DNA from: a virus
DNA: 23,295 bases
Virus record (IMG/VR): IMGVR_UViG_3300027777_000152
Coordinates: 1-23,295 of that record
Reading direction: 5' to 3' (one strand)
Positions 11,504 through 22,750 of this stretch are shown here, piece by piece (the first letter of the stretch is position 1; each line of letters begins with the position of its first letter). The notes beneath the pieces were generated by a model. It saw nothing but the letters and a program-made list of their open reading frames with translations. It did not search any database and was not told where the DNA came from. The position numbers were made by a program, and so were the translations under genes.

Positions 11504-12232
11504 CTAAACTCCTTTAGAAGAATTGACAAATTGTAAAGCCTTACGAAACTCAACTTCGGTGATAGAATCTATCGATATAATACCCAGGTGCGAACAGAGC
11601 TTATTAACTTTGATACCCTTATCGCCACACTGTTGAACAAGCTTATAGCGGTCTTCAATACTAACATCTGATGTTCCACTAAAAGTTTTCTCCGCTGGGG
11701 ATTCTTCATCTAAAATATCCTCATTAGAGATAGCTCCACCAAGCTCTTCGGTGGTGTAAAAAGGGAACGCAGTTAAGTCTGGACAGTAAACCCTTGCACC
11801 TGCTGTGATACAGCGAGCAAACAGCATGGACTTAGGGTATTTCACCCAAATATCTTTTTTATCCAACCCAGCCCTCTTAGCATCTTCCATGGTAAAGCTG
11901 TGGTTTCCTACCACTTCACGGTCCTCATAGAAGTCCACACTACACGCAGTTGGGGTAAGCTCTTTAATGCGATAGTTGTAACCTGGTCTAGCCTTCTTGA
12001 TCAGGGCAGCTACAAAGTTTGCACTAAAGGTTGGGGTTCCCATGATTAGCTGAATAGCCTTTAGGCTAGCAGCAGCACCTAGGCCCAACTCACGACCAAC
12101 CTGGATACGCACCATGGCACTAGCAACATCCTTGATGTCCTTATAGATGCCAGATTTAACAGCAGCAGTGGCGAATCTTTCCATATCGGAAACATTTGTA
12201 AACACCTCAGCTACGGGGACTAAATTAGCCAT
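11504..12232 (-). CDS. recT: RecT-family single-strand annealing protein, 242 aa
   Basis: Anneals complementary strands resected by the phage exonuclease. It has the RecT/RecP core: IYKDIKDVASAMVRIQVGRELGLGAAASLKAIQLIMGTPTFSANFVAALIKKARPGYNYRI, followed by the strand-rich part with KRAGL..KDIWVKYPKSMLFARCITAGARVYCPDL. AGGAGG is 6 bases before the ATG at 12232; an upstream frame to 12280 lies inside the preceding gene. The partner is the YqaJ-type exonuclease at 14921-15523, separated from it by the integrase and attachment region. Confidence 0.9.
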   Translation of the reverse strand: MANLVPVAEVFTNVSDMERFATAAVKSGIYKDIKDVASAMVRIQVGRELGLGAAASLKAIQLIMGTPTFSANFVAALIKKARPGYNYRIKELTPTACSVDFYEDREVVGNHSFTMEDAKRAGLDKKDIWVKYPKSMLFARCITAGARVYCPDLTAFPFYTTEELGGAISNEDILDEESPAEKTFSGTSDVSIEDRYKLVQQCGDKGIKVNKLCSHLGIISIDSITEVEFRKALQFVNSSKGV

Positions 12233-12527
12233 TATTAACCTCCTCAGTTCTAGGGGCTTCACCCTCTGAAATATACTCACACGAACTATAGTGCAGGAAA
12301 ACGACCTGCATACTACCTGACACAGTTGAATTCTCTTGAGTTATCACAAGTGGCTCATCAAGTTTTACTAAGTATCCCATGGCAGTACTGTCACCATGGT
12401 AATAAGGGACTAGGGGAGAACAGATGGTTCCGTGTAGAACACTGTCTGGGTGTTCCCCAGACAGTCCCCACACATGCACCTTTGAGTACAAAGGGTAAAA
12501 CTCGCAGGTGCTAAGGGTTTCGTTCAT
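12225..12527 (-). CDS. Hypothetical protein, probably SH3-like barrel, 100 aa
   Basis: Alternating beta strands such as VLHGTICSPLVPYYHG...MGYLVKLDEPLVI suggest a small barrel. I know similar uncharacterised proteins in phages but no function. AAGGAG lies 7 bases before the ATG, and the start overlaps the stop of the acidic protein (TAATG). Its reading frame contains a perfect 10-base inverted repeat at 12441-12465. The end overlaps recT by 8 bases. Confidence 0.7.
   Translation of the reverse strand: MNETLSTCEFYPLYSKVHVWGLSGEHPDSVLHGTICSPLVPYYHGDSTAMGYLVKLDEPLVITQENSTVSGSMQVVFLHYSSCEYISEGEAPRTEEVNNG
12441..12465. repeat. Hairpin ACTGTCTGGG-tgttc-CCCAGACAGT inside a gene
   Basis: Perfect 10-base G/C-containing arms with a 5-base loop inside the SH3-like gene. 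It could be an RNA structure that modulates expression of the downstream genes, or a binding site; there is no T-run. Confidence 0.5.
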
Positions 12528-12929: not shown

Positions 12930-13121
12930 ATGGCTGTTAAAAAGAATGACAATGCAGATGAATCTACTACCACCATGCGCGTAAGTCGTAAAACACTGCG
13001 GATGATACAAATTATCGCAGCATGGAAGGATTTGGGTATTAGTGAATATGTAGACCACCTGGTTAAAACCCAAGGTGCAAAGGATCTGGACGATATGAAA
13101 AAAGGTATAACTAGTCTCTAG
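12930..13121 (+). CDS. Ribbon-helix-helix-like DNA-binding protein, 63 aa
   Basis: After a polar N-terminus comes a beta strand, TTTMRVSR, and two helices (KTLRMIQIIAAWKDLG and SEYVDHLVKTQGAKDL), the RHH arrangement. AAAGGAG lies 6-7 bases before the ATG. It stands alone on the plus strand, divergent from the replication operon and convergent with the integrase, with the attachment region downstream. Candidate roles are repressor of the divergent promoter or a recombination directionality factor; both are inference from position. It is not obviously the same protein as the RHH at 3020-3190. Confidence 0.72.
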   Translation: MAVKKNDNADESTTTMRVSRKTLRMIQIIAAWKDLGISEYVDHLVKTQGAKDLDDMKKGITSL

Positions 13122-13128
13122 TATCTAA

Positions 13129-13166
13129 ACTAACTTATAAAAGTCTTTAGACTTTTATAAGTTAGT
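13129..13166. repeat. Near-continuous 38-bp palindrome after the RHH gene
   Basis: Arms of 18 bases (13129-13146 and 13149-13166) with only TT between them; the inner part reads AAAAGTCT-TT-AGACTTTT. It begins 8 bases after the RHH stop. It may be a terminator (the T-rich tail is weak), a cruciform or a protein-binding site next to the attachment region. Confidence 0.75.
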
Positions 13167-13184
13167 AGTCTATTAAATAGACTA
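13166..13184. repeat. Second palindrome TAGTCTATT-A-AATAGACTA
   Basis: Perfect 9-base arms around one base, abutting the 38-bp palindrome. It is followed by very AT-rich DNA with repeated TATA/GTATA steps (13204-13227), the kind of bendable DNA seen at attachment sites or origins. Confidence 0.65.
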
Positions 13185-13246
13185 GATTACTAAATAAACT
13201 AACCTATATAGTATATTAGTATATAAAAGCAATTTGTGTGCCAAAA

Positions 13247-13265
13247 CTGTACCCCGGAGGTACAG
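13247..13265. repeat. Dyad CTGTACC-CCGGA-GGTACAG left of the tRNA-like core
   Basis: Perfect 7-base arms. A near copy lies at 13450-13469 on the other side of the tRNA-like core, inside the integrase gene. They are candidate binding sites for the integrase arm domain, the RHH protein or an excisionase. Confidence 0.6.
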
Positions 13266-13286
13266 ATTTCTAAAATAACCCTAAAA

Positions 13287-13334
13287 CCCATCTTTCCACG
13301 GTTAGGAAAATGGTGATTTTCTGGGGCTTTTTTT
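13287..13334 (+). terminator. Terminator with an alternative competing stem
   Basis: CCCA (13287-13290) pairs with TGGG (13322-13325) enclosing GAAAAT-GGTG-ATTTTC (13306-13321), followed by seven T. A competing stem, CCATCTTTCC/GGAAAATGG (13288-13297 with 13305-13313, one bulge), would prevent it. It could end the RHH transcript. Confidence 0.55.
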
Positions 13335-13347
13335 GCGGTTGCTTCTT

Positions 13348-13400
13348 GCGCCCGTAGCTCAGGGGATAGAGCATCGGTTTCCTAAATCGAGGGTTCTCCT
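13348..13400 (+). other. attP: tRNA-Arg(CCU)-like 5' half, probable attP core
   Basis: The bases read as the first half of a tRNA: acceptor strand GCGCCCG (13348-13354), TA, D stem GCTC/GAGC with loop AGGGGATA, and anticodon stem TCGGT/ATCGA around loop TTCCTAA, anticodon CCT at 13381-13383. Resemblance ends after about GGGTTC (13391-13396): no T-arm and no 3' acceptor strand follow, so this is not a tRNA gene. The downstream bases form a new hairpin with the anticodon 3' strand (AAATCGAGG/CCTCGATTT). Next to an intact integrase, the best reading is a phage attachment core derived from a host tRNA gene. Confidence 0.65.
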
Positions 13401-13426
13401 CGATTTTAGCCTATAAAAATAGGCAT

Positions 13427-14416
13427 TTAGATCTTTCTTTTAGCCTTTACTGTACCCGTGGGGGTACAGAAACCTGTAACAGAATCGTCCAAAACATACT
13501 GGTCATAGATTTTTAAGGTGGTTGTGGGGCTAGTGTGGCCTAGTCTAGCTGCTACCATTCTAACATCACACACACCCAGCAGGTGGGTTGCATTAGTGTG
13601 CCTGAGGTCATGTATCCGCAATCGTATTTTCAATCTTTTTATAAGTGGGCACCACCACCTTCTCAAATTGTTGCGTGCTACCCTACACCCCTTAGGACTA
13701 GTAAATATTGGGGAATTGGGAGAACCCTTTAAACGGTCCAAAATTGAGATAAGCTTATCAGATAGGGTGATAGAGCGGTTACCCTTAGAAGTCTTAACTG
13801 GGATGATTTTAGCCCCCTTCAATTGGTCGTTGTAGGCTTTGTTGATGTGGATCTTGGGGGAGACATAGTCGGCCCAAGTCAAACCCAGGGCTTCGCCTAA
13901 CCTAGCCCCTGTGTCTAGGAGGAACAAAAGTAGTGGTTGGTAGTGGTTACCGTTGTTTAGCTCAATGAGTTTAAGTGTCTGTTCAGGGGTAAGTGCAACA
14001 CCCCTAGCCCTGGTAATTTTGGGCACTATTCCATAGGGTACTGGAACACCTGCAATCTTACACAGAGTGATTAAACGCTTAATTGTTCGATAGGCTTTAG
14101 GGAGTGCAAATATCTTGTTTATTTTAGATACGGTATTTAATACATTGACCTCTGTCATGTGCTCGCCCACTAGTGCTAGACGCAGTGAGTCGATTTCCTG
14201 TTTATACCTTCTGAGGCTAGACTCGCGCACATTTCTAGATGTTAAAAACTTGGAAAATGTGTCAGAAAAGCTATGTTGTTTTTCTGACACGGAGGTCTGA
14301 GGCATTAAAGCCTCAGCCTCCTCCCGTGTACGGTGGTAAGTACGCCTCTTCTTACCATCGGTGGAGGTTTGGAAGACCCAGAGTTTACTACCTTTACTAA
14401 AGAATATTGTAGCCAT
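13427..14416 (-). CDS. int: Tyrosine recombinase integrase, 329 aa
   Basis: Site-specific integrase of the phage type. An N-terminal arm-binding-like domain (1-45, FFSKGSKLWVFQTSTDGKKRR), a SAM-like core-binding domain (about 48-125) and a catalytic domain. Catalytic residues: R172 (TGARLGE), K208 (KTSKGNR), H269/R272 (HDLRHTN), H294 (LGHTS) and Y304 (IYDQY). Full length, no frameshift. It faces the attachment core about 30 bases beyond its stop. No convincing ribosome site precedes the ATG at 14416; the predicted promoter ends only 5 bases before it, suggesting a leaderless mRNA. It interrupts the run between the exonuclease and RecT genes but is on the same strand. Confidence 0.95.
   Translation of the reverse strand: MATIFFSKGSKLWVFQTSTDGKKRRTYHRTREEAEALMPQTSVSEKQHSFSDTFSKFLTSRNVRESSLRRYKQEIDSLRLALVGEHMTEVNVLNTVSKINKIFALPKAYRTIKRLITLCKIAGVPVPYGIVPKITRARGVALTPEQTLKLIELNNGNHYQPLLLFLLDTGARLGEALGLTWADYVSPKIHINKAYNDQLKGAKIIPVKTSKGNRSITLSDKLISILDRLKGSPNSPIFTSPKGCRVARNNLRRWWCPLIKRLKIRLRIHDLRHTNATHLLGVCDVRMVAARLGHTSPTTTLKIYDQYVLDDSVTGFCTPTGTVKAKRKI
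13450..13469. repeat. Dyad CTGTACCC-GTGG-GGGTACAG right of the tRNA-like core
   Basis: Perfect 8-base arms, inside the last codons of the integrase. It is the partner of the dyad at 13247-13265 and has the same outer sequence. Confidence 0.6.
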
Positions 14417-14530: not shown

Positions 14531-14961
14531 AAATCTAACCTCATTGTCGTACCGTTCACATAGAACCCGAAATGGGAGTAGTACTTTTCTAGTGAGGGAG
14601 CGCAGTCCAGGATGATTTTAAAACACCCTTTATTATGACAATAATTTATTGCGTGCCTGACTAGGTCTTTTCCTATACCCTTCTTTCTAAACTCCTCAGC
14701 CACTATGAAATCATCAACAAACGCATAGGGTTGTCTGTAGATCATTTTGTCCACTAGCTGCACTGTGATACTGCCTAGTGGCCTACCACAATCACTGTGG
14801 TATAAAAAAGTAGGACAGGTCCCTGCAAAGGACCTGTCCAAGTAGCACCGTTTCATCTCTTCTATTGTTGTAAAAACAGGTGCGAATTCATTCAGTAAAT
14901 CCATGTAGTTTTGGTCTAGGTCATGTAGATCGAGCCTTCTGATTTTCGATTTCTTGTACAA
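14527..14961 (-). CDS. GNAT-family N-acetyltransferase, 144 aa
   Basis: A compact GNAT with the acetyl-CoA loop RKKGIGKDL (about residues 92-100) preceded by the strand FVDDFIVAEEF and followed by CFKIILDC...LEKYYSHFGF. The overall order resembles GNA1-type glucosamine-phosphate acetyltransferases, but substrates of GNATs cannot be read from sequence. The start is TTG at 14961 with AAGGAG 7 bases upstream, nested in the exonuclease gene (41-base overlap), so the two are co-translated. A phage acetyltransferase could modify a host protein, a small molecule or a drug. Confidence 0.85.
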   Translation of the reverse strand: MYKKSKIRRLDLHDLDQNYMDLLNEFAPVFTTIEEMKRCYLDRSFAGTCPTFLYHSDCGRPLGSITVQLVDKMIYRQPYAFVDDFIVAEEFRKKGIGKDLVRHAINYCHNKGCFKIILDCAPSLEKYYSHFGFYVNGTTMRLDL

Positions 14962-15523
14962 AGCTTTGCTCCTTTAGAAAGAGTTCTTTGATGTAACCTT
15001 CGTTGGGTAACATTTCGACAATTGCGAGTCTCTCATGGTGCTTAAATTTAGGCACATCACTGTAGGAAACATAGTGCGCTATCTTTGCCCCTGTTACACC
15101 CAGTTGGTGTTGGATCTGTGGGTAGTAGTACTTAGGTATCCAACCCCTAAGGGCTTCTGCATGAGCACGGTCATTAGGACACTTTATCTCTAAAATAACT
15201 TCTCCATCGTCAGTGATACCGTCCAAGCTAGCCATAAACCATGGAAAGCTTTCATGCTCCACACAGGCTGGAGTCATTTTTAAACCTGTCAAGTCCTCAT
15301 ACATTTCGCGCACTATTGGTTCTAGTCTTTTACCCCTAGCCATGCGCTCATTCTCGTACATTTCACTAGCTATACCTAGCTTACGATCCCGTAGCTCTTC
15401 AGGTTTGCACCATGGATTTGCACCCATGAGTACTGCACAATCAGAACCACCTACCCCGCCCTGTCTCCACTGTAACCACTCTGCACCGCTCTGATCGAGT
15501 GTCACAAACTTGCAATTTGACAT
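14921..15523 (-). CDS. YqaJ-type (lambda-exonuclease-like) recombination nuclease, 200 aa
   Basis: 5'-3' exonuclease of the PD-(D/E)XK fold that makes 3' single strands for RecT. Motifs: EWLQWRQGGVGGSDCAVLMGANPW (15-38), GKRLEPIVREMY (64-75), D101 in ASLDGI, E112-x-K114 in ILEIKCP and YYPQIQHQLGVTG (about 132-144). GAGGA lies 8 bases before the ATG. The end contains the ribosome site and start of the acetyltransferase. It is not adjacent to recT, although both belong to the same functional pair. Confidence 0.9.
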   Translation of the reverse strand: MSNCKFVTLDQSGAEWLQWRQGGVGGSDCAVLMGANPWCKPEELRDRKLGIASEMYENERMARGKRLEPIVREMYEDLTGLKMTPACVEHESFPWFMASLDGITDDGEVILEIKCPNDRAHAEALRGWIPKYYYPQIQHQLGVTGAKIAHYVSYSDVPKFKHHERLAIVEMLPNEGYIKELFLKEQSFVQEIENQKARST

Positions 15524-18310: not shown

Positions 18311-21300
18311 CTAAACTTGTAAGTACATCTGGTACTGCATACTGGACATTCCCATTGTGTCGGTTCCAGTGTTGAAATTTAGAACAATCGTTTGTCCAGT
18401 AGTTACCGCAACACTTCCAGAGATATAAGTGTTTGCAGCGTTCACTGCACCCTTGTCCACACCGTTTACCAGCAGGTGACCCACCACACCATACCCACTG
18501 CCATCGGAGGTGCTGTAGGAGTAGTAAAGTGTCCCATTACCCGCAGCGGTGAAGTTGACTGTTTCTGTTGCACCGTATCCATAGATATACCCACTAGTTT
18601 GATCGTAGGAGTTTAGTCCGTTACCGGAGTGGTATCCAGCATTTGAACTCTGACTTACAAAGTTAAACCCGTTGGTGAGTGGAACTGGAGGATGCAATGT
18701 AACACTAGCTGTAGCACCTGCACCGTTTGAGGTTACGGCTCGTATTAGGACGGTGCTGTTCACTCCATTGGTAAGTCCGTACACAGAGATCTGACCGGGT
18801 GAGGAACTATAGGTGCTCGTCCATGATCCACCGTTCACATTGTATTCGTAGTTATTAATGTACGCCCCGCCATCAGATGTAGGTGCGCTGAAAGTTATTG
18901 AGGGGTAGTTCATGGAACCGTCCCCAGATGTACTAGCTGTGATAACAGGTGCTGATGGTACTGGAAGTGTGTATGTGAACAGTGTGTTTGCGCCATTAAT
19001 ACCACCGGGTGTAATTGCAAAAACACTAACCGCACCCGCAGCGTGTGCAGGGGAAACTGCCGTTACAGTAGTTGCGTTTACCACCGTTACGCTTGTGGCT
19101 AGTGCTCCACCTATGATAACTGCACTGGTTCCTGTTAGGTTTGTTCCGGTAAGTGTTACACTAGTGGAACCTGTGATAACTCCTGAGTTTGGTGCAATAC
19201 TGGTAACAGTAGGGGATGGAGATGGGGATGGACTAGGAGTAGGTGTAGGAGTTGGTGTACTACCCGCAGTGTAGGTGAATAGTGTGTTAGCTACCGTAGC
19301 ACCACCCGTAGTAGTGGCCTGTACATCCACACCAGCAGAGTGCGCTGGGGTGGTTGCTGTAATGGTGGTTGCGTTCACATAGGTGATATTGGTTGCTGCA
19401 ACACCCCCAATTTTTAGTGTAGGGGATGGTGTGAAGTTAGTGCCTGTGATGGTGATTGCTGTACCACCCGCTGTGGTACCTGTCGCAGGTGTAATAGAGG
19501 TAATGGTGGGTAAGGGTGTTGAGTAGTACTCAGTCGCACCAATGGTAGGGGTTGTTGCAGAGCGTGCATAACCCCTTTGATCTAGTGCGTTGACGGGTGC
19601 TGCATTTGTTGCTGCTGCTGTACCTGCGTTGATAGCATTACTACCTGCACCAACCGCCATAGTCATTACGGTACCACCGTTGTTTTGTAGAGGCCCTAGA
19701 AGCGGAGAACCTGTGGTATTAGCTATGTTGGCTAGATCATATGTAGAAGCCGATCCTACAATATTGGTAGACTTTACATTAGCACTGCTATTGTTGGAAT
19801 ATGATCCAAAATCGTTGTAAGGTGTTCCCGTGTTACCTACGATAATACAGTTTTTAAGGGTCAGGCTGGTATATTCAGTACGGTTCAACCCACCTGCTGT
19901 GTTTGTAGAGGTGTTTCCTGAGATGGTGCTAGACAACACTGTATACGCAGATACTCCAGAAGAATCACTACCGTACAAAGCTAAAGCAACTCCACCTGTA
20001 TTGCCTGTAAATGTGCAGTTGTACACAGTGGTATTTCCACGACCGTATGTTTGTGCGTTATACGCACCTACGCCCGTATTATTGGAAAAGGTGCAGTTCC
20101 CTATTTTGTCGATGACAGACCAAAGACCTATAAAAACACCTGAACCGTTAGCAGCAGTATTTCCAATAAATGAGCTATTGGTTATGTTGGTAGAACCCGG
20201 AAAATAAGCTCCGTTATAATAGGGAGCGTGGTAAATCCCACCCCCATTGGCAGTGGTGGAGCACCCGCTGAAGGTGCAACAATCTATGGTGAGGTTGCAA
20301 GCTATATTATAAATACCCCCCCCTTCAACTGGGGTTACCGTTGTTTTACCGTTGGATATGGTTAAACCAGTAATCTTTACATCAAGTACCGCAGTTGTTC
20401 CACTAATACGGAACACCCTGTAGGTGCTGTTCCCGTTAATTGTGAGTACGGATAACCCAGGTCCTGTGATGGTTACACTGCGTGTAATTCCAGGAAGTGC
20501 GGATGTTAGTGTAATCACACCTGTTACCGTAAACGCAATGGTATTTACACTTGATGTTGCATTAGCTTGTGTAAGTGCCCAACGCAGTGTTCCAGAGTCT
20601 GTAGTGTCTAGGAGTGAGGTTACCATGAACACTGTTTGACTTGCTGCAATGTAGAAGAAGTGGGTATTGGCTGAGTTAGTACCAGCGGATGTGGTGACTA
20701 AAACACTTGCACTTCCAACGGTACCAGCGGGTGTAGTAGCTGTGATAGTGGTGTCATTAACTACAACAAAGCTAGCTGTAGCACCACCTATGGTAACCGC
20801 AGTTGCACCTGTGAAACTAGTACCTGTGATGGTGACTGTGGTCCCGCCTGATGCGGGTCCACTGGTCGCAGTTACACTGGTTACAGTTGGTGCTGGGTGT
20901 GAAACAGTTGGCGTAGGTGATGGTGTAGGTGCGGGTGCAAGACAGTACCTGTGCCATGCAGTACCCGTCCATGTCCATGCCCTACCTGCAAAGGAGTAGA
21001 TGGAGTTGAGTGCAGGTGTGAGTGGGAATACAAACGGGCCTGTGTTTGTGTCTGGTGGTGCAAGGCATGGGTTTAATGTTGGTGTAGGACTAGGTGTAGG
21101 CGTTGGTGTGGGAGTTGGCGTAGGTGTAGGGGTTGGTGTGGGAGTAGGTGTTGGTGTTGTAGATCCCCCAAAAAATACATTAAACACATACACATCTGTA
21201 CCTAAAGTGAAAGTTTTTGAGTATGTGGTTCCGCATGGGCGCATTGGAATTGCGGCACTTGCTGAAAATGAACCGCTGTTAACAAGGATATTAGTTGGCT

Positions 21301-22750
21301 CATTGTTCCCGTATGTATCGTATTGAAAAGCACAATAGGTGTTTCCTGTTAAAGTATTAGAATCGTAGTTTGTATAACTGGTTGTCCTTAAAGTAAAAGA
21401 AGTAAAGTTTCCTAAAATTACTCCGTTTTTTAAACAGTTTCCGCTTATTGGGATGCATTGTGCAACTGGTGCAAAATAGGTAAACAATGTATTTGCTGTG
21501 TTAGTTCCAACAGAGGTGGTTACTAGAACACTAGCCGTACCCGCAGCATGTGCACCTGTGGTTCCAGTGATGGTGGTTGAGTTAACAATGTTTCCATTAG
21601 TAAGTGCAACACCACCTACGGTGACTCCGGTTGCCCCAGTAAAGTTGGTGCCGGTAATGGTGATGCTAGTGCCACCTGCTGTAGATCCAGTAGTAGGTGA
21701 AATACTAGTCACGGTTGGGATTGGAGGTGCTATATATGTGCATGATAAAACAGCAACTTGAAATGTACCTATAGCTACGGTAATTTGGCTTAGTTGTTTT
21801 ACATAATACAACCCAGCAACATTCCCAAAACCTCCAATACCCCCCCACATATTTGGTAAAGTTACAGTATTTCCAATTTGTAAACCCATCGTACTATAAT
21901 CCGCATAGGGAGTAGTTTGTGAACCCCCAAACGATATACCCCACTCATCGGTAGACGATTTGTACAATAAAGCTGCCATTAGTGGCCTAGTAAAACCAAC
22001 AAGATTTGATGCAATATCTCCACTATACATCCCTATCTGGCCCGCTTCATCCCAACTAATAAAACAAGGGCCAGGGGTTGTTCTAACAATTAAACCATTG
22101 TAGGTTGAGTAATCTGACCCGTATCCTGTCGAGCCAGCGTACCTATATGCAATTGCACCGCTTGCTGTATTAGCAAATACATCGGATCCTCCCATTGTGG
22201 GGGCGTTATTCATGAAATAAACTTTTTTCAAACTAGTGCAGTTTTTAAACGCAGTATCAGCTATATTTGTAAGTGGAGTAGTTAAAGTAATTTTAGCTAA
22301 ACTTGTGCAGTTAATAAAAGCTGCAAGATTAATAGTGGTGAGATTATTAGGAAGTACAATTGACTTTAATCCAGTGCAATGACTAAAAGCCCCATTTGGG
22401 ATCACAGAAATATTATTTGGTAGTACGATGTTATCTAAAAGCGGGCTATAAGAAAACGCACCTATTCCAAGGGTAAATGATGAGGAGGTGTTGTTTGGAA
22501 AAGTAATTCCAAGTAAATTGGGGCAATTTGCAAATGCTGATGATCCAATACTAGTGACAGCATATGGAATTATAACCGAAGACATTGTTGAATTTAGAAA
22601 GGCGTTATCTCCAATGGCTACAACCGTATAACCACCAACTTGTGTTGGAATATTTACAACAGTATCCGAACCCGTGTACCCTGTTATTTCGCAAGTATTA
22701 CCAGGACCATTCACAACACCTGCGTAAATATAATTTCCTGCACTAGGCAT
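18311..22750 (-). CDS. Mosaic tail-fibre/adhesin with BspA, IPT, beta-helix and Fn3 domains, 1479 aa
   Basis: Probable host-binding tail protein. Domain order from the translation: BspA-type leucine-rich repeats (about 20-220, units like AIGDNAFLNST...IGSSAFANCPNL); IPT/TIG (about 346-430); a Cys-containing globular part; a Pro-Thr linker (about 535-565); a small Trp-rich module, FAGRAWTWTGTAW; a second IPT (about 622-705); a parallel beta-helix (about 708-1075) ending in a 'choice-of-anchor Q'-like segment GSNAINAGT...LDQRGYAR; a third IPT; a Pro-Thr/Ser linker (about 1168-1180); a fourth IPT; an Fn3-like domain (about 1265-1365); and a C-terminal beta domain. AAGGA lies 8 bases before the ATG. 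No chaperone or variable-repeat machinery is visible. Confidence 0.85.
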   Translation of the reverse strand: MPSAGNYIYAGVVNGPGNTCEITGYTGSDTVVNIPTQVGGYTVVAIGDNAFLNSTMSSVIIPYAVTSIGSSAFANCPNLLGITFPNNTSSSFTLGIGAFSYSPLLDNIVLPNNISVIPNGAFSHCTGLKSIVLPNNLTTINLAAFINCTSLAKITLTTPLTNIADTAFKNCTSLKKVYFMNNAPTMGGSDVFANTASGAIAYRYAGSTGYGSDYSTYNGLIVRTTPGPCFISWDEAGQIGMYSGDIASNLVGFTRPLMAALLYKSSTDEWGISFGGSQTTPYADYSTMGLQIGNTVTLPNMWGGIGGFGNVAGLYYVKQLSQITVAIGTFQVAVLSCTYIAPPIPTVTSISPTTGSTAGGTSITITGTNFTGATGVTVGGVALTNGNIVNSTTITGTTGAHAAGTASVLVTTSVGTNTANTLFTYFAPVAQCIPISGNCLKNGVILGNFTSFTLRTTSYTNYDSNTLTGNTYCAFQYDTYGNNEPTNILVNSGSFSASAAIPMRPCGTTYSKTFTLGTDVYVFNVFFGGSTTPTPTPTPTPTPTPTPTPTPTPSPTPTLNPCLAPPDTNTGPFVFPLTPALNSIYSFAGRAWTWTGTAWHRYCLAPAPTPSPTPTVSHPAPTVTSVTATSGPASGGTTVTITGTSFTGATAVTIGGATASFVVVNDTTITATTPAGTVGSASVLVTTSAGTNSANTHFFYIAASQTVFMVTSLLDTTDSGTLRWALTQANATSSVNTIAFTVTGVITLTSALPGITRSVTITGPGLSVLTINGNSTYRVFRISGTTAVLDVKITGLTISNGKTTVTPVEGGGIYNIACNLTIDCCTFSGCSTTANGGGIYHAPYYNGAYFPGSTNITNSSFIGNTAANGSGVFIGLWSVIDKIGNCTFSNNTGVGAYNAQTYGRGNTTVYNCTFTGNTGGVALALYGSDSSGVSAYTVLSSTISGNTSTNTAGGLNRTEYTSLTLKNCIIVGNTGTPYNDFGSYSNNSSANVKSTNIVGSASTYDLANIANTTGSPLLGPLQNNGGTVMTMAVGAGSNAINAGTAAATNAAPVNALDQRGYARSATTPTIGATEYYSTPLPTITSITPATGTTAGGTAITITGTNFTPSPTLKIGGVAATNITYVNATTITATTPAHSAGVDVQATTTGGATVANTLFTYTAGSTPTPTPTPSPSPSPSPTVTSIAPNSGVITGSTSVTLTGTNLTGTSAVIIGGALATSVTVVNATTVTAVSPAHAAGAVSVFAITPGGINGANTLFTYTLPVPSAPVITASTSGDGSMNYPSITFSAPTSDGGAYINNYEYNVNGGSWTSTYSSSPGQISVYGLTNGVNSTVLIRAVTSNGAGATASVTLHPPVPLTNGFNFVSQSSNAGYHSGNGLNSYDQTSGYIYGYGATETVNFTAAGNGTLYYSYSTSDGSGYGVVGHLLVNGVDKGAVNAANTYISGSVAVTTGQTIVLNFNTGTDTMGMSSMQYQMYLQV
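19207..19259. repeat. Hexamer tandem repeat encoding Pro-Thr/Pro-Ser linker
   Basis: Degenerate GGNGTN/GGNGAT hexamers between the third and fourth IPT modules of the adhesin. Copy-number change by slippage would stay in frame. Confidence 0.75.
21080..21160. repeat. Longest hexamer tandem repeat, Pro-Thr linker
   Basis: About thirteen GGNGTN-like hexamers encoding alternating Pro and Thr, a flexible linker between the first IPT region and the Trp-rich module. Third positions vary, so the run is old or selected rather than freshly expanded. Confidence 0.85.

Follow-up and report, generated by a model that had tools for sequence, protein, structure and literature searches.

The stretch at 13348-13394 of the window (by which we mean the whole virus record analysed here, 23,295 bases) is probably the core of the attP in a temperate phage that infects freshwater Planctomycetota; this phage would insert into the single tRNA-Arg(CCU) gene of its host and have the tRNA rebuilt at the far end of the inserted DNA. 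The phage carries the 5' part of the tRNA, and its sister phages carry the 3' part. The host tRNA is probably repaired from opposite ends in two clades that have the same enzyme family and the same target.

The full reading of 13348-13394 is GCGCCCG TA GCTC AGGGGATA GAGC A TCGGT TTCCTAA ATCGA GGGT (Table 1). The sequence-only reading had described an acceptor 5' strand, a D arm and a whole anticodon arm beside an intact integrase, and direct reading confirms this make-up. It had also placed the end of the block past the anticodon stem, which is correct, at 13396 or 13400, which is slightly too far: identity to the host tRNA ends at 13394, in the variable loop, and is thus confined to the 5' part, with the 3' part left out. 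The tRNA 3' half of a classical attP is absent from the window and is present in two sister phages (L029 and G004). Neither ARAGORN nor Rfam at gathering score finds a complete tRNA in the window, and Rfam at gathering score finds no other RNA family in it; the covariance-model check proposed earlier returns a partial signal, with only 18.2 bits for the Rfam tRNA model over 13348-13427. The attP is located between the integrase gene, whose 3' end is 32 bases away, and a small RHH-like gene.

Table 1. Features of the attachment region, in window coordinates.
Feature	Position	Strand	Basis or remark
RHH-like gene, 63 aa	12930-13121	+	ORF; conserved neighbour, far side of attP
Left palindrome CTGTACCCCGGAGGTACAG	13247-13265	.	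matched by right palindrome; about -107 from attP
5' part of tRNA-Arg(CCU), region identical to attB	13348-13394	+	read directly; 47 nt
Acceptor 5' strand GCGCCCG	13348-13354	+	direct reading; TA comes next
D arm GCTC-AGGGGATA-GAGC	13357-13372	+	direct reading; A comes next
Anticodon stem TCGGT, 5' strand	13374-13378	+	direct reading
Anticodon loop TTCCTAA	13379-13385	+	anticodon CCT at 13381-13383; presumed crossover site
Anticodon stem ATCGA, 3' strand	13386-13390	+	direct reading; GGGT then to 13394
Perfect 9-bp hairpin AAATCGAGG-GTTCT-CCTCGATTT replacing tRNA 3' half	13384-13406	+	also in G002
Second small hairpin GCCTAT-AAAA-ATAGGC	13409-13424	+	between attP and integrase stop; no hairpin in G002
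Tyrosine recombinase (integrase), 329 aa	13427-14416	-	PF00589, E 1.2e-16; PHROG integrase
Right palindrome CTGTACCCGTGGGGGTACAG	13450-13469	.	inside 3' end of integrase gene; about +96 from attP

The target gene was identified by an exact search with the 42-mer CGTAGCTC...GAGGGT in 84,980 species genomes (11.3 million genome contigs). The 42-mer is found at 3 loci only, all of them complete tRNA-Arg(CCT) genes in MAGs of freshwater planctomycetes (L015, L016 and L017). Over 13354-13394 (41 nt) the window is letter-for-letter identical to these single-copy tRNA-Arg(CCU) genes, and its acceptor strand has one mismatch to all three (position 5, C versus T) and equals the acceptor strand of the host of the lysogen G001 described below. 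Among 2.9 million viral contigs, a one-degenerate version of the 42-mer has 4 loci, each in a member of this phage group; L027 and L029 came in through integrase searches. The restriction of the 42-mer to three tRNA-Arg(CCT) loci and to this phage group excludes a chance match. A looser tRNA-Arg(CCT) pattern is found in 47 of 95 genomes of the host family, with one copy each, and only 3 of these 47 (the same MAGs) have a T at position 40, as in the phage. Target gene and host group are therefore well supported. The earlier proposals that a host genome should have a matching tRNA-Arg(CCU), and that the stretch is an attP directed at this gene, are borne out by three freshwater Planctomycetota MAGs, whose complete genes share the block exactly from 13354 on.

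The protein encoded next to the attP is an intact tyrosine recombinase (PF00589 with catalytic R-K-HxxR-H-Y), whose residues R172, K208, H269, R272, H294 and Y304 are invariant in four relatives. The predicted structure of the integrase is too poor for use (pLDDT 40); the strand-strand-strand-helix order at its N-terminus hints at an arm-binding domain. The gene order RHH-like gene, attP, integrase, acetyltransferase, RecE is common to the window and the sister phages. The RHH label is our judgement of a protein without Pfam or PHROG match. Past the RHH-like gene there is a long AT-rich hairpin (13128-13166), with a stem that is kept and a sequence that is clade-specific (equivalents in L028 and L029). 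A RecT-like annealing protein (11504-12280) and a YqaJ/RecE-like exonuclease (14921-15523) flank the attachment and integrase module on either side.

The window clade has two known independent members, the window and G002 (L011-L013), as G003 is part of the G002 sequence. Their integrases are 78-81% identical to each other. Both have an intact acceptor 5' strand (GCGCCCG in the window, GCGCTCG in G002) and both lack the tRNA 3' half. Over the block, 47 of 48 bases agree, compared to 15 of 21 just upstream and about 85% identity in the neighbourhood (p about 0.004 against the latter, simple binomial). When each phage is recombined in silico with each of the 3 hosts and the junctions are scored by ARAGORN, all 6 recombinants of the window and G002 have a tRNA at the far side and none of the 6 has one at the integrase side; the restored tRNA, found at the non-integrase side only, consists of the phage 5' half and the host 3' half. 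Since the attP shares only the 5' half, integration must yield this combination with phage DNA upstream. The hybrid tRNA that had been proposed from the letters of the window, with a phage 5' half, a host 3' half and a position behind phage DNA, is hence supported by the shared block as well as by the recombination in silico. The two ends of the 51 kb G002 contig share an overlap of 230 bp (96% identity), which marks the genome as near complete and makes it look circular or permuted. Neither the window nor the near-complete G002 has a tRNA gene able to stand in.

The sister clade comprises the free phages L029, L027 and G004 (L028) and the prophage G001, with integrases 65-66% identical to that of the window. 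The contig end of G001 consists of 79 bases of host flank, 78 of which match L017 and L015, while the same positions in the free phages match at 14-21 of 79. Past the host flank follow a complete tRNA-Arg(CCT) and then the integrase side of the phage, where all 1300 positions compared are the same as in free L029. G001 is therefore an integrated copy of an L029-like phage, so that for this family, represented here by an integrase 65% identical to that of the window, the attP, the attB and one of the junctions are known. The rebuilt tRNA of G001 lies at the integrase side, behind the host's own 5' flank, which is the classical layout. The sister attP spans the D arm to the tRNA 3' end, and its 5' acceptor strand is decayed, reading TCCCTAG in L029/L027 and TCCCTCG in G004. 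In silico recombination of the sister phages gives two junctions accepted by ARAGORN; the one at the far side is without a proper acceptor stem, and its fold energies are about -18 to -23 kcal/mol versus -27 to -30 kcal/mol. A homologous prophage with the crossover elsewhere had been named as the finding that would speak against the layout of the window. G001 goes half way towards it, being such a relative that restores the tRNA on the opposite side; the attP of its phage carries the other half, so this is a difference between clades, and the layout of the window is not refuted. The tRNA 3' halves of the sister phages match the T arms of different host species exactly (L029 that of L017, G004 that of L015), and such a match is possibly a marker of the host species.

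In place of the tRNA 3' half, the window clade has a perfect 9-bp hairpin that incorporates the 3' strand of the anticodon stem. Its stem is identical in G002, where the loop is GTTAT instead of GTTCT. The hairpin folds better than shuffles on the + strand (z -3.1), and the region 13380-13430 does so on the - strand (z -4.9). Judged from its fold and position, it is likely a putative end-of-transcript signal, for the integrase transcript on the other strand too, which would be a reasonable role. A terminator upstream of the 5' half looks likely by eye, yet has a z of only 0.2 versus shuffles. The palindromes flanking the attP covary as a pair across phages (TGTACC in the window and G004, TATACC in L029, AGTATAGT in G002), and they track residues 1-38 of the integrase: over the first 38 residues the integrase of the window is 82% identical to that of G004 and 53% to that of G002, versus 64% and 81% elsewhere. 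As they follow these residues and not the remainder of the protein, the palindromes are probably arm-type integrase sites, and in the four phages compared the N-terminal domain seems to be exchanged as a unit. Binding of the palindromes by the RHH-like protein is unlikely because the window and G002 have different palindromes but 98% identical copies of this protein.

The mechanism that we propose builds directly on the identity block, the target, the integrase, the integration of the same family at this tRNA and the rebuilding in silico. From these we infer that the phages of the window clade integrate and that strands are exchanged, most likely in the anticodon loop (13379-13385). The host promoter would then be left with a dead 5' fragment running into the hairpin beside the integrase gene, and a complete tRNA would be rebuilt at the other end from the phage 5' half and the host 3' half, behind phage DNA. 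In the lysogen, the 9-bp hairpin would lie behind the host promoter and beside the integrase end, and could end both transcripts. The mirror-image decay in the two clades suggests that the hybrid tRNA would be made and used; since neither a lysogen of the clade nor an upstream promoter was found and the host has a tRNA-Arg(UCU), its expression in the lysogen, and the dependence on phage sequences upstream that the sequence-only reading proposed, are steps that we infer.

Integration at this tRNA is seen in the sister clade (G001), and no window-clade lysogen is found in the genomes and contigs searched. No integrase of the window clade turns up among 95 genomes from the host family or among 102 from the host order that largely include those 95, both sets being searched without any positive-control genome. 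A search for window-clade junctions among viral contigs by means of the host flanks recovers only G001. Searches for more clade members with the integrase, the RHH-like gene and RecE yield only G002/G003 and L030/L130, the contig of which ends inside the integrase gene, and GenBank phages include no near match to the phage. A scan for sigma-70-like promoters finds none in 13100-13500, including upstream of 13348. The scan is also blank before the host tRNA gene, so this negative says little in this phylum.

An alternative is that integration breaks tRNA-Arg(CCU) and that the break is tolerated, as tRNA-Arg(UCU) reads AGG by wobble; the sequence rebuilt at the far side would be silent, and the 5' half would serve as integrase substrate only. 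The host G005 indeed has a tRNA-Arg(TCT), able to read AGG, so rebuilding tRNA-Arg(CCU) may be unneeded and the host could perhaps do without it; AGG is nevertheless a frequent codon in both phage and host (43 of 156 and 38 of 218 counted Arg codons, respectively), which argues against a free loss. The empty promoter scan upstream fits a silent copy. The sister clade keeps its D and anticodon arms even though they land in the dead fragment, hence part of the conservation serves recombination. A tolerated break does not, however, account for the state of the 5' acceptor strand, intact in the window and in G002 but decayed in the sisters, and we regard it as unlikely.

The stretch could also be a worn-down relic, derived from the full-length attP of an ancestor by loss of the 3' half, in phages that no longer, or rarely, integrate here. 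The lack of a window-clade lysogen among the searched genomes and viral contigs would agree with this, as would a faint trace of a possible degenerate T arm in the sequence that replaces the 3' half (8 of 2000 shuffles in the best of ten comparisons), which is not seen in G002 and which we do not claim given the inconsistency between the two phages. An intact integrase with all catalytic residues, the agreement of window and G002 at 47 of 48 bases and the palindromes matched on both sides make a relic quite improbable. Least probable by far is that the 5' half acts first of all as a transcribed RNA, a decoy made of a tRNA half with the hairpin as its closure, its use as an attachment site being secondary: half and hairpin do fold better than shuffles, but no promoter is seen in the scan, the anticodon arm is not formed because the stable fold uses up its 3' strand, and the position next to the integrase and the family link to an observed integration site already explain the stretch.

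The prevalence of 3'-half carriage among elements that target tRNA genes is usually explained by retention of the host promoter. The assumption of the sequence-only reading that the 3' half is the part most often carried agrees with Islander, which counts 3,760 islands with a 3' fragment and 159 with a 5' fragment, 3,919 in total (PMC4383910). In the latter, as proposed for the window, it is the 5' part that is displaced, and the element supplies the 5' part of the rebuilt tRNA; unlike the window clade, which is known from free attP sites alone, these islands were read from whole genomes (PMC4383910). The pTN3-type integrases of Thermococcus likewise use an attP with the 5' half, sharing 41 bp that cover the anticodon, and cut the rebuilt tRNA off from its original promoter (PMC5495485, PMC8371274). 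They differ in being archaeal and in having the attP inside the integrase gene, which is split upon integration, whereas the integrase gene of the window stays whole. In bacteria, 5'-half carriage is seldom met (PMC8371274). Among Mycobacterium and Gordonia phages, relatives at one tRNA site also differ in rebuilding the host tRNA (PMC10865867). Those with tRNA-dependent lysogeny do not rebuild it and carry a replacement tRNA gene, which the near-complete G002 does not have; the window clade is therefore not a case of this kind (PMC10865867). The closest comparison is given by the sister phages (G001, L029/L027 and G004), which share integrase family, host tRNA gene and gene order with the window, and differ from it in carrying the 3' half, in rebuilding the tRNA at the integrase side behind the host 5' flank and in the decayed acceptor strand.

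We note that 5'-half carriage itself is known and rare; what is unusual is a polarity switch inside a single phage group that uses a single integrase family and target. For such a switch at one tRNA gene we found no report in the literature, which we covered in part. The two sister clades deal with one and the same problem, each from its own end of the gene, the unused end having decayed in each, and in uncultured phages linked to a planctomycete host group they offer a natural comparison for asking what polarity costs, in what way it changes and if a prophage is able to control a host tRNA. A wider scenario, which we consider rather doubtful, is that the polarity flipped by descent from an ancestor with a nearly whole tRNA copy, of which either half could decay, and that the host tRNA-Arg(CCU) came under phage sequences in the window clade, possibly controlled by palindrome-bound proteins. 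If true, the near-whole copy of the ancestor would leave two complete tRNAs upon integration.

Away from the attachment region, 18311-22750 of the window encodes a 1,479-aa protein with TPTPTP linkers and repeated domains, which is poorly conserved among relatives and is probably a tail or surface-binding protein.
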